From Acidobacteriota bacterium (GTDB taxonomy: Bacteria > Acidobacteriota > Terriglobia > Bryobacterales > Bryobacteraceae), in the NCBI GenBank assembly GCA_025350695.1, contig JANXXI010000218.1, positions 1-44,553 of the forward strand: a stretch of DNA of 44,553 nucleotides, given 5' to 3'. Below are positions 23,378 through 27,377 of the stretch, one piece after another. Each line of letters opens with the position of its first letter. Positions within the stretch are counted from its first letter, which is position 1. Made by a program: the position numbers and the translations under genes. The notes under the pieces are model-generated. The model did not search any database. It was not told where the DNA came from and saw only the letters and a program-made list of their open reading frames with translations.

Positions 23378-24358
23378 ATGCTCAATCTCACTTCCAAGCG
23401 TATCTGCGTCACCGGCGGCGGCGGGTTTCTCGGATCCTTCGTCGTCGAGGCTCTCCGCCGCCGGGGCTGCCGAGAAATCTTCGTTCCGCGCAAGCGCGAC
23501 TATGACTTGACCAAGCCGGAAGCCGTTGCCCGTATGTTCGGGGATGCCAAGCCCGAAGTGGTCTTTCATCTTGCCGCAGTCGTTGGCGGGATTGGAGCCA
23601 ATCGCACTAACCCCGGGCGATTCTTTTATGAGAACGCCATTATGGGCATCGAACTTATCGAGCAGGCCCGGCTTCACAAAGTGGAAAAACTGGTTGTGGC
23701 AGGAACGATCTGCGCTTATCCCAAGTTCACGCCTGTTCCGTTTCGGGAAGAGAATTTGTGGAACGGCTATCCGGAAGAAACCAACGCACCCTACGGCGTA
23801 GCGAAGAAAGCTTTGCTGGTGCAATGTCAAGCATATCGTGACCAGTACGGGATGAATGCCGTGTTTCTGCTACCCGTCAATCTCTACGGCCCCCGCGACA
23901 ACTTCGATCTGGAATCTTCCCACGTTATCCCGGCCCTTATCCGGAAGTTTGAAGACGCAAAAAACAACGGATCCAATTCCGTCAAATTGTGGGGCGATGG
24001 CACGCCCACCCGCGAATTCCTCTTCGTTGAAGATGCCGCCGATGGACTGATCGCAGCGGCTGAGCGGTACGATAAAGGTGAGCCGGTGAACCTTGGCAGC
24101 GGTCGTGAAATCTCCATAGCCGATCTTTCGGCTCTCATCGCGCACCGCTGCGGGTACCAGGGAAGCATCCTTTGGGATACGTCCCAACCGAACGGCCAAC
24201 CGCGCCGTCAGTTGGACACGCAACGGGCTTGCGATGAGTTTCAATGGAGAGCGCGGACATCCTTCGAGGATGGTCTGGATAAAACTATTGAATGGTATCG
24301 CAGCGAAACCCTTGCCCCTGTGACTCCTTGCGAAAATTTGACTGTCCACGGTTCCTGA
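23378..24358 (+). CDS. fcl: GDP-L-fucose synthase-like epimerase/reductase
   Basis: A 326-residue extended SDR that would turn the Gmd product into GDP-L-fucose by epimerisation and reduction. It has the Rossmann motif [35 protein letters not shown] (a strong Fcl signature), the catalytic Tyr139 and Lys143 in [14 protein letters not shown], and [19 protein letters not shown]. The catalytic Ser position, usually GSSCIYP, reads GTICAYP. The context directly after gmd makes the assignment likely. The C-terminus ([15 protein letters not shown]) is not typical and may reflect rearrangement next to the disturbed region that follows. Confidence 0.87.
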
Positions 24359-24681: not shown

Positions 24682-24788
24682 AGGCCAGAGGGCCGGGCGC
24701 TGAGAAAGAGATAAGCTATTGAAACCTAGAGGGAACGGAGCGAGAGAATAGGGCGTGACGGGAATTCGTGTGTATTGCGCCTTAGCAG

Positions 24789-24975
24789 CAACACTGTTCA
24801 CTTAGGATCGGTCGACTAGCCCACAACTTGCCCACAATGGGAATCGCGGGGTCCTTCCGAACCAAGTCATATGGTTGGGACTTCGAACGATCCCCCGATT
24901 TTCATCGGGGGCTAGTCGAAATGCCCGTTTCGACAGCAGCGATAGTCACGCTAGAAACCTAAGTGAACAGTGTTG
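24789..24975. mobile_element. MITE-like element with 18-bp terminal inverted repeats and 10-bp target duplication
   Basis: The element is 187 bp long. Its ends are perfect inverted repeats: CAACACTGTTCACTTAGG at 24789-24806 and its exact complement at 24958-24975. The sequence GCCTTAGCAG flanks it directly on both sides (24779-24788 and 24976-24985), which is what a 10-bp target-site duplication looks like. It contains no gene, so it would depend on a transposase elsewhere. Inside are an 11-bp inverted repeat (24812-24822 with 24909-24919) and the hairpin of the dispersed repeat, so most of the element can fold. Confidence 0.85.
24854..24951. repeat. Dispersed hairpin repeat, copy A (inside the MITE-like element)
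   Basis: This 98-bp segment aligns with 26465-26561. The core is a perfect 8-bp stem (CCCCCGAT at 24892-24899, ATCGGGGG at 24904-24911) with a TTTC loop, preceded by CGAACGAT and followed by GGGCTAGTCG in both copies. The right part ends in AGCAGCG and TCACGC in both. Confidence 0.8.
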
Positions 24976-24978
24976 GCC

Positions 24979-25308
24979 TTAGCAGAAGAACTCCGTGAGA
25001 ACTTCGTCGTACTCGACACCGTCAATGATGACTTGGCGGGGCGCACTCTTTGAAGCCAAGGGCGTGATGCACAACTGGCGACCAACACCTGGCCTCGCCC
25101 CTCCGGCAACAGAAAGGTCCCGACTTGACCGACATGGCGCCCTGGAGGGAAGTAACGTCGGCCACAGGTCAAGGCGCTGAAATCCTACCCCACTTTCATT
25201 TACGGCGACAAGGAAGGTTTCCCGACTCGATAGCGACTCCAAGTGGCGGGCTTCTTGTTCAACCGGCCAAACGCCATCGGTGGCGGAGTAGATCCACTCT
25301 GAAGCCAC
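24979..25308 (-). CDS. Unrecognised open frame ending in the MITE target duplication
   Basis: A 109-codon frame starts with GTG at 25308, 21 bases after the stop of the beta-propeller gene, and ends VIIDGVEYDEVLTEFFC. Its TAA stop lies within the 10-bp duplication beside the MITE-like element, so the insertion left the stop intact. The C-terminal 20 residues look protein-like, but the middle (LLPSRAPCRSSRDLSVAGGA) is arginine- and serine-rich and may be out of frame. It may be a frameshifted remnant or simply non-coding. I do not recognise it. Confidence 0.3.
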   Translation of the reverse strand: MASEWIYSATDGVWPVEQEARHLESLSSRETFLVAVNESGVGFQRLDLWPTLLPSRAPCRSSRDLSVAGGARPGVGRQLCITPLASKSAPRQVIIDGVEYDEVLTEFFC

Positions 25309-25329: not shown

Positions 25330-26421
25330 CTAATCGGTAACCTGCTCAAAGATGGCGAAGTCGCCGGGATTCCAGGCTTGCGCGATCACGTATAGCTTGT
25401 TGTTCATTCTCTTCAAGACAGCGTTGTGGATATGGGCGAAATTCTTCAAGCCCAAATCTTCCTTCGGCATCAGCGTCGAAACCAGCTTGTCGTTTTCGAG
25501 GATGTAGATCGGGGCGCCTTTGGTGCGATCGGGTCCATCGAGCGATCCAACCACGGCATAATTACCGAGATAGTAGATGTCGCATGGCAGCGAACCGAGA
25601 GGCATCTTTAACGTGGACAGATATTGCCCCCCCTTGTTGAAGCGGTCGATTTCGGAATTGGAACGGTCTGCCACATCAATCCGTGTTGTGCCGGGGGGGA
25701 TGGTGATTCCATGGCCGGTGCCGAGCTGGCCCGGTCCCGCGCCGCGCCCACCAAAGGCAAGATCGTTCCATTCGGCCTTGAACGGCGAGGTGCTGAGGAT
25801 GCGGGCGGTGAGAACGAAGTCGAGTTGCGAGTAGCCGGTGGTGATGTACATCAGCCCGTCGAGTTGTTCGACATCGGTGGGGATGAAGTTACCGCGGCCC
25901 ATAAAATAGTCGGTGGCCTGCGGATGGCCCATTTCGGTGCCTGCCACGGGGGGCTTAAGGGCATGCACCATCGCGCCATCGATGGTGGTTGTGAACACTT
26001 GATTCGCCTCGTTACCGGGGAAGAGCAGGAACGGCGTGCCGTCCTTAGCGATCATGATGTTGGCGTTGTGCAAGTTGGTATTTTTCATTTCGGGCGCGGT
26101 GGCGAGCATGCGCGTGGTCTTCATGTCGGAACTGATTTGCACGATGCCGGCGCCTTTCAAGGCGAAGTAAATTTCGCCTCGACCGGGACGCATGTCGATT
26201 GCAAAGCCTCCGTGCGCGCCTTTGATAACTGTCTGGGCTTCGGGCGGGAGATGGCTGGTGGTGTAGATTGCGCGGAACTTTAGTTTGCCATTTCCGGTTA
26301 CCCCGCTGTACTCGCCTGAGTAAGATGCCGAACTCTGGGCAATGCCTCTGGTGTTGTTTCCAAAGAACCAAGTTGTGGCCAGTAATCCGAGGAAAAAGGT
26401 GCTTAGTGTAAATCGCTTCAT
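25330..26421 (-). CDS. Secreted beta-propeller (NHL-like) protein
   Basis: A 363-residue exported protein with signal peptide MKRFTLSTFFLGLLATTWFF. The mature chain has repeated four-strand blade patterns: GGFAIDMRPGRGEIYFAL, NIMIAKDGTPFLLFPG, TDVEQLDGLMYITTGY, then HGITIPPGTTRIDVADRSNSEIDRF, which matches the NHL signature (DRxNxxIxxF). The last blades are CDIYYLGNYAVVGSL and LKRMNNKLYVIAQAW. Conserved His residues (NLHNANI, HIHNAV, GHPQ) might bind metal as in peptidyl-hydroxyglycine lyase-like propellers, but that is a guess. It lies downstream of the SDR gene with a hairpin repeat in the gap. Confidence 0.7.
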   Translation of the reverse strand: MKRFTLSTFFLGLLATTWFFGNNTRGIAQSSASYSGEYSGVTGNGKLKFRAIYTTSHLPPEAQTVIKGAHGGFAIDMRPGRGEIYFALKGAGIVQISSDMKTTRMLATAPEMKNTNLHNANIMIAKDGTPFLLFPGNEANQVFTTTIDGAMVHALKPPVAGTEMGHPQATDYFMGRGNFIPTDVEQLDGLMYITTGYSQLDFVLTARILSTSPFKAEWNDLAFGGRGAGPGQLGTGHGITIPPGTTRIDVADRSNSEIDRFNKGGQYLSTLKMPLGSLPCDIYYLGNYAVVGSLDGPDRTKGAPIYILENDKLVSTLMPKEDLGLKNFAHIHNAVLKRMNNKLYVIAQAWNPGDFAIFEQVTD

Positions 26422-26464: not shown

Positions 26465-26561
26465 CTTCCAAACCGAGTGCGCTGTGGGGGCTCCGAACGA
26501 TCCCCCGATTTGCATCGGGGGCTAGTCGCAATACCAGGTTGGAGAGCAGCGCTAATCACGC
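26465..26561. repeat. Dispersed hairpin repeat, copy B
   Basis: This 97-bp segment is homologous to copy A and lies in the 149-base gap between the SDR gene and the beta-propeller gene. The perfect stem is CCCCCGAT 26502-26509 and ATCGGGGG 26514-26521 with a TTGC loop; the stem and the flanking CGAACGAT and GGGCTAGTCG are identical to copy A. No 18-bp terminal inverted repeats or target duplication are seen here. Confidence 0.8.
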
Positions 26562-26570
26562 CGCGAGGGC

Positions 26571-27377
26571 TTACCGCATCACTTGGCCGCCATCGACATT
26601 GATGGTTTGCCCGGTCACCTGATTGGCGCGCGCGGAGGATAGGAAAGCCACCATGTCGGCGATATCTTCTGTTTCCTGCCAGCGGCCTAGAGGGGCAACG
26701 GCTCGGACCTTGTCGGCGAACCAGACTTCGTAGGAACGGCGTTTTTCGACAGGCTGTTGTTGGTTCCACGAATGCCAAACGTTTTGGTTGAGCGGGGTCT
26801 TCACCATGCCGGGGTTCACGGTGTTGACGCGAATGTTATGCGGGGCCAGGTCCTTGGCGAGGCACTGGGCGAAGTTAATACCGGCGGCTTTGGTGGCGCT
26901 ATAAGGCGGATCCGTTTGGGAGCCGATTTGTCCAGCGACGGAGCCGATAAAAACCATGGTCCCCTGCTTGCGTGCGATCATACCCTTGGCCGTGGCTTGA
27001 GCAACGTGGACCATGCCCATGATGTTTACGTCGAGCACACGGGGCCAATCGCTGGGATTGAGGTTGGTGAAGGGGAAGCCGAATTTTCCTGAACCGACAG
27101 CGGCGGCATGGACGAGGTGGGAGATGTTCCCGAGGGCGGTTTCCGTTGTATGCGCGGCGGCTTGGACTGCGGTGAAGTCGCGGACATCGACCACGAGGCC
27201 GAGCGCCGGCGGTGCGAAATCCGCGGCAATGGCGGCGGCAGCTTCAATGACGCCCGCAGACACATCCCATAGAGCGATGCGGCACCCTTCGCGAGCGAAT
27301 CCTCGGGCGCAGGCGAGGCCGATGCCACTAGCACCGCCGGTGATGACTGCGACGTTTCCGTTGAGTTCCAGTTCCAT
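26571..27377 (-). CDS. Short-chain dehydrogenase/reductase
   Basis: A 268-residue classical SDR. The cofactor motif is VITGGASGIGLACARGF, and Asp38 in ALWDVSAG suggests NAD preference. The catalytic set is Ser146 in VFIGSVAGQ, and Tyr159 and Lys163 in PPYSATKAAG. It continues IRVNTVNPGMVKTPL and ends ANQVTGQTINVDGGQVMR, a standard C-terminus. The alcohol or sugar substrate is not known. It starts at ATG 27377 behind AAAAGGAACCC, 15 bases after the stop of the SEC-C gene, so the two are likely co-transcribed. Confidence 0.9.
   Translation of the reverse strand: MELELNGNVAVITGGASGIGLACARGFAREGCRIALWDVSAGVIEAAAAIAADFAPPALGLVVDVRDFTAVQAAAHTTETALGNISHLVHAAAVGSGKFGFPFTNLNPSDWPRVLDVNIMGMVHVAQATAKGMIARKQGTMVFIGSVAGQIGSQTDPPYSATKAAGINFAQCLAKDLAPHNIRVNTVNPGMVKTPLNQNVWHSWNQQQPVEKRRSYEVWFADKVRAVAPLGRWQETEDIADMVAFLSSARANQVTGQTINVDGGQVMR

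Follow-up and report, generated by a model that had tools for sequence, protein, structure and literature searches.

A 187-bp MITE in an Acidobacteriota genome, very probably derived from subgroup IS4 of the IS4 family

In the window analysed here, a stretch of 44,553 nucleotides from an Acidobacteriota bacterium, 971 bases separate two reading frames with facing 3′ ends, and within these bases lies a 187-bp sequence with inverted ends and flanking direct repeats, which raises the question of what kind of mobile element it represents and which enzyme may have moved it. The upstream neighbour, an NAD-dependent epimerase/dehydratase gene, ends at position 24358, and the downstream neighbour is a minus-strand frame (25330–26421) that is conserved at the DNA level in other genomes. 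The element itself occupies positions 24789–24975, and the span 24779–24985 comprises the element together with both target repeats (Table 1).

A preliminary description of this DNA had proposed a MITE-like element of 187 bp with perfect 18-bp inverted ends, a 10-bp duplication, and no coding capacity, and this structural proposal is borne out. The two terminal arms are complementary at 18 of 18 positions and are the sole matches to the 18-bp end in the window at up to 3 mismatches, with 0.02 expected from shuffles. The sequence GCCTTAGCAG is present on both flanks and nowhere else in the window, with 0.08 occurrences expected by chance. Each of the six frames of the 187 bp contains at least one stop codon, and the longest stop-free run is 57 codons. 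Single-strand folding of the element is far stronger than that of 200 shuffles (z = −8.48), as would be expected with inverted repeats. Within the window, neither Rfam at gathering thresholds nor a tRNA search gives any match, and the 187-bp element has no match in a plasmid collection.

Table 1. Positions of the element, its parts, and a related relic in the window.
Feature	Position	Strand	Remark
Target duplication, left copy, GCC-TTAG-CAG	24779–24788	+	Fits NNN-YTAR-NNN of full-size elements
Terminal inverted repeat, left, CAACACTGTTCACTTAGG	24789–24806	+	
Element interior, without gene	24807–24957	.	Stop codons, alignment, search of 200 genomes
Target-like site inside element, CGACTAGCCC	24813–24822	+	Part of internal 11-bp inverted repeat
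Internal hairpin, CCCCCGAT-TTTC-ATCGGGGG	24892–24911	.	Pattern at 32 places in own genome
Target-like site inside element, GGGCTAGTCG	24909–24918	+	
Terminal inverted repeat, right	24958–24975	−	
Target duplication, right copy	24976–24985	+	
Second relic of the MITE family, end-less	26465–26561	+	81% identical to element positions 66–163

The genome assembly of the organism (7.19 Mb in 391 contigs; completeness 100, contamination 4.8) contains many sequences related to the element. The 18-base end occurs 41 times at up to 3 mismatches, against 5 occurrences of a reversed-pattern control; blastn with the 187 bp yields 46 matches at E ≤ 0.001, and the same search rerun on stretches fetched from the genome distinguishes 55 pieces, in places several per site. 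Whole copies are few: an ungapped census, which overlooks copies whose ends contain an indel or that run off a contig, gives 9 end pairs 60–450 bp apart, and three of these, the window copy included, keep at least 8 of the 10 bases of the duplication (values of 10, 9, and 8). Among the other copies found, the most similar has 92% identity across 185 bases, and there is no near-identical sibling. The hairpin, as the pattern CCCCCGAT-N-ATCGGGGG, is found at 32 places in the genome, among them window positions 24892–24911 and 26502–26521, and inspection by eye of 15 hairpin loci shows that many have MITE copies or relics around the hairpin; also by eye, loci L184 and L185 lie within a different repeat, and L186 is without clear MITE sequence. 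The interior of the element, sought in 200 genomes of the family with at most four candidates scored per genome, matches the own genome and one other, the latter over 27 bases overlapping the hairpin, which is a weak negative result.

Two side observations concern the surroundings of such pieces. The second relic in the window adjoins a minus-strand frame (26571–27377) that reads like a short-chain dehydrogenase. In addition, the start of contig C189 (L013, 1–130) and the end of contig C350 (L020) have by eye the same sequence in opposite orientation beside MITE pieces, and this common sequence is probably a repeat at which the assembly was interrupted.

Relatives contain full-size elements whose ends nearly match those of the window element. 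Among 200 genomes of the family, 44 (the own genome included) carry the end at up to 2 mismatches, and a reversed control is present in 11, so that some single end matches are due to chance. In one relative (L081), such an end is adjoined by a 406-aa protein that matches Nterm_IS4 (7.8e-25), DDE_Tnp_1 (1.4e-16), and the IS4 family transposase model NF033592 (2.4e-68); this copy is without a recognisable right end. When 84,980 species genomes were scanned, 398 loci were found. Among the best 80 of these, 49 have the two ends, each with no more than 4 mismatches over 16 bases, at a distance of 1414–1499 bp, and 31 do not. The 14 bases of flank required on either side are not available for four of the 49, and without these four, 45 full-size elements remain that are partly non-independent, as some come from one genome. 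A perfect 10-bp duplication flanks 16 of the 45, and 21 have one at up to 1 mismatch; duplications of 6–9 or 11–13 bp are absent from all 45, and the 24 elements without a duplication at up to 1 mismatch mostly keep the target motif on both sides. The commonest full-size end is CAATACTGTTCACTTA, from which the end of the window element differs at 1 of 16 bases, with C instead of T at position 4. These relatives, about 1.45 kb long, occur in the bacterial family of the window and also outside it. In P0001, the sole protein checked, YHERWEIENSLDELK at 314–328 fits Y(2)R(3)E(6)K and the DDE spacing is as expected, with D140, D216, and E321 as putative catalytic residues, the aspartates being chosen from motif reading.

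Short forms also occur outside the own genome, as the examined stretches contain 9 further short end pairs, three of which retain 9–10 of the 10 bases of the duplication: L074 (158 bp, 10/10), L077 (192 bp, 9/10), and L103 (113 bp, 9/10). The preliminary description had named paired inverted ends in the genome and its relatives, and a transposase-bearing full-size element with matching ends, as the signs to look for; the former have been found in both places, and the latter in relatives, with ends different at 1 of 16 bases, and not in the own genome. As separate observations, a 1224-bp IS4 element of a relative (L080, 295–1518) has both ends and a transposase broken into several reading frames, without a matching target duplication, and genome G063 of the same family carries 25 ends of this type, many of them near-identical and reading CAATACTGTTCACTTTGG, but one transposase match, which is perhaps the mark of another MITE family.

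The full-size elements insert at NNN-YTAR-NNN. YTAR is located at positions 4–7 of the 10 bp in 81 of 90 full-size flanks, against a background of 0.33%, and at positions shifted by 1–3 bases it is seen in 0 or 1 of the 90; the commonest bases of the target are GGG-YTAG-CCC. The duplication around the window element obeys this rule. In the own genome, YTAR is present at the exact position in 14 of the 41 end flanks (with the window insertion counted twice), against a background of 0.77%, and is missing there in the other 27.

The window element is thus very probably a MITE of 187 bp, a non-autonomous element derived from subgroup IS4 of the IS4 family. The assignment is based on the ends, the duplication, and the copy number, and on the ends, duplication length, and target motif that the element has in common with full-size elements. 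It is short, has terminal inverted repeats and a target duplication, contains no transposase gene, and is dispersed in many copies, as shown by the blastn matches and the ends, and full-size, transposase-bearing elements whose ends agree at 15 of 16 bases are present in relatives, the own genome being without one. DDE chemistry and staggered joining are established for the IS4 family. Both CAAYACTGTTCACTTA ends would be recognised by the DDE transposase of an insertion sequence from subgroup IS4, and this enzyme would excise the element and join it to breaks staggered by 10 bp at a favoured NNN-YTAR-NNN site; gap filling would then produce the 10-bp repeat, with the MITE presumably mobilised in trans. 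The cut-and-paste insertion proposed in the preliminary description agrees with the many own-genome copies and with the near-identical ends, transposase, and 10-bp duplications of the full-size relatives, and the element that it could not name can now be placed, through the relatives' ends, transposase, duplication, and target motif, as a derivative of subgroup IS4.

In PMC2266710 (“IS4 family goes genomic”, 2008), subgroup IS4 is described as having a length of 1400–1650 bp, ends of the form -AATR--------WTW, and a duplication of 10–13 bp, and the IS4 family as having the spacing D(60-110)D(100-150)E together with the motif Y(2)R(3)E(6)K. With 1.41–1.50 kb and a 10-bp duplication, the full-size relatives lie within these ranges; their ends, CAATA...TTA, fit the consensus, from which some members deviate, and they share the YREK motif and DDE spacing, as checked in P0001. 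In contrast, the tip of the window element is CAACA, not CAATA, so that one base marked as conserved in Table 1 of PMC2266710 is missed while the WTW part fits that description, and the element has no transposase; it is therefore a derivative and not an IS of the subgroup. When two MITE copies were aligned with both ends of one full-size IS, the terminal repeats were alike and the interior showed no convincing likeness; no IS sequence is seen in the MITE interior, so that the assignment is to the subgroup rather than to an exact parent.

A source of transposase was sought in the own genome. An Nterm_IS4 search gives no match there (E. coli was detected among 14 controls), nor does the L081 protein, and the same L081 query matches 50 of 200 family genomes, some weakly or in fragments. 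The only other genome of the genus examined has neither the end, at up to 2 mismatches, nor the transposase. Six own-genome DDE_Tnp_1 genes were considered as the parent and rejected, with no 18-base end within 5 mismatches nearby; two single end hits at 6 mismatches lie around them. As the assembly consists of 391 contigs, an unassembled repeat could conceal a transposase. With no transposase detected in the own genome and just three well-kept copies in the ungapped census, the family looks stranded, its members presumably having been moved in trans by an enzyme that is now lost, unassembled, or was never resident, and the simplest reading would be that this enzyme is absent from the genome today.

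Other explanations of the locus have to be weighed against this identification. Duplications of 8–12 bp are found in several IS4 subgroups, according to PMC2266710, and the own genome has the six DDE_Tnp_1 matches of other kinds, so that the MITE might have been moved by another transposase group that makes duplications of about 10 bp, e.g., IS4 subgroup ISH8 or IS4Sa; however, 15 of the 16 terminal bases and the target motif equal those of full-size IS4-subgroup elements, and none of the six genes has a nearby end within the limit given above, which makes such a mover quite improbable. Still less credence can be given to a selected functional intergenic repeat, in the form of a REP-like hairpin or a transcription terminator with the ends as a by-product. 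The strong internal hairpin with its many genomic occurrences and the position between two genes with facing 3′ ends would suit such a function, but the target duplication and target motif mark transposition, and in an alignment of 28 copies with 8 stem pairs, 180 of 224 cells keep the pair of the window copy, 43 are broken or gapped, and 1 is a Watson–Crick change on both sides (G–T counted as broken), which gives no covariation support for hairpin function.

That the inverted and direct repeats coincide by chance has a negligible probability, as it is refuted by the many copies, and both the arms and GCCTTAGCAG exceed the shuffle expectation. The preliminary description had stated that the lack of any other copy and of any related transposase would tell against a mobile element; 46 matches in the own genome and an IS4 transposase in relatives have been found instead.

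The IS4-derived element also contains sequences that resemble its own target. Its internal 11-base inverted repeat, TCGACTAGCCC and GGGCTAGTCGA, matches the target rule. At three of the 41 ends (C278, C368, and C217), the flank outside the end is family sequence, with 0 of 100 shuffles as good, and at C278 and C368 the end of another copy directly abuts the internal GGGCTAGTCG site of an older one, the nested junction at C278 being GGGCTGGTCG. Since the internal sites fit the target rule and copies are nested there at C278 and C368, the element offers its own landing site. A wider proposal, in which an orphan MITE lineage has outlived its parent IS and carries its own preferred landing sites in CGACTAGCCC and GGGCTAGTCG, with new copies inclined to insert into older ones, spare host genes, and build nested clusters, is speculative and rather unlikely to hold as a whole.

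The preliminary description had further taken the insertion to be recent. The ends and repeats are indeed undamaged, but a recent insertion is weakly supported, because the nearest copy is 8% different, there is no near-identical sibling, no alignable flank occurs in 61 genomes, and 10 and 18 bases can survive unchanged by chance for some time. The window copy also drew attention precisely because no other is as well preserved. In the search for an empty site, in which 1601 bp of surroundings were compared with 61 genomes with no more than five candidates scored per genome, no alignable DNA was found around the insertion point; 27 genomes besides the own genome match the surroundings, G001 over 30 bases in the gap and all the others within the coding part starting near 25330, where the match of G006 comprises just 36 bases.

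Among known systems, the MIC231 cassettes of IS231, a member of the IS4 family, are likewise non-autonomous derivatives that are moved in trans, and they carry passenger genes; they belong to subgroup IS231, whereas the window element is assigned to subgroup IS4. A counterpart of the full-size relatives is an ISBvi1-like element on a plasmid of Cupriavidus sp. USMAA2-4, annotated as “IS4-like element ISBvi1 family transposase”, whose transposase is 52% identical to that of L081. This element is 1455 bp long, its two ends match at 2 and 3 mismatches over 16 bases, and the 10 bp duplicated on its flanks, CGG-CTAG-ACA, have YTAR at their centre as in the window element, which indicates that the target rule extends well beyond this bacterial family; it differs from the MITE in being autonomous and betaproteobacterial and in its inner end bases. 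A Neorhizobium protein is a better match (68%); in its surroundings a left end is seen with 4 mismatches, and a right end is lacking at up to 6. The MITE of H. walsbyi, assigned to ISHwa2/IS4 in PMC3852290 (237 bp, 34 copies), is like the window element a short multi-copy derivative of an IS4-type element, but has a 5-bp duplication and 17-bp ends, compared with 10 bp and 18 bp here. No description of the present element was found in the literature, including the available parts of PMC2266710, PMC3852290, PMC9769881, and PMC4596501, and the 16-base end, sought as text, was not found in the literature.

The element is a real mobile element of an ordinary, known kind and, as such, no surprise for specialists, and it represents an IS4-derived repeat that is newly named. 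The analysis gives this repeat a name and links it to a group of transposases whose target is sharply defined, namely 10 bp with YTAR at the centre. Further genomes of this bacterial family also contain short end pairs with matching duplications, and the element is useful in annotation and offers a clean case for testing trans-mobilisation.
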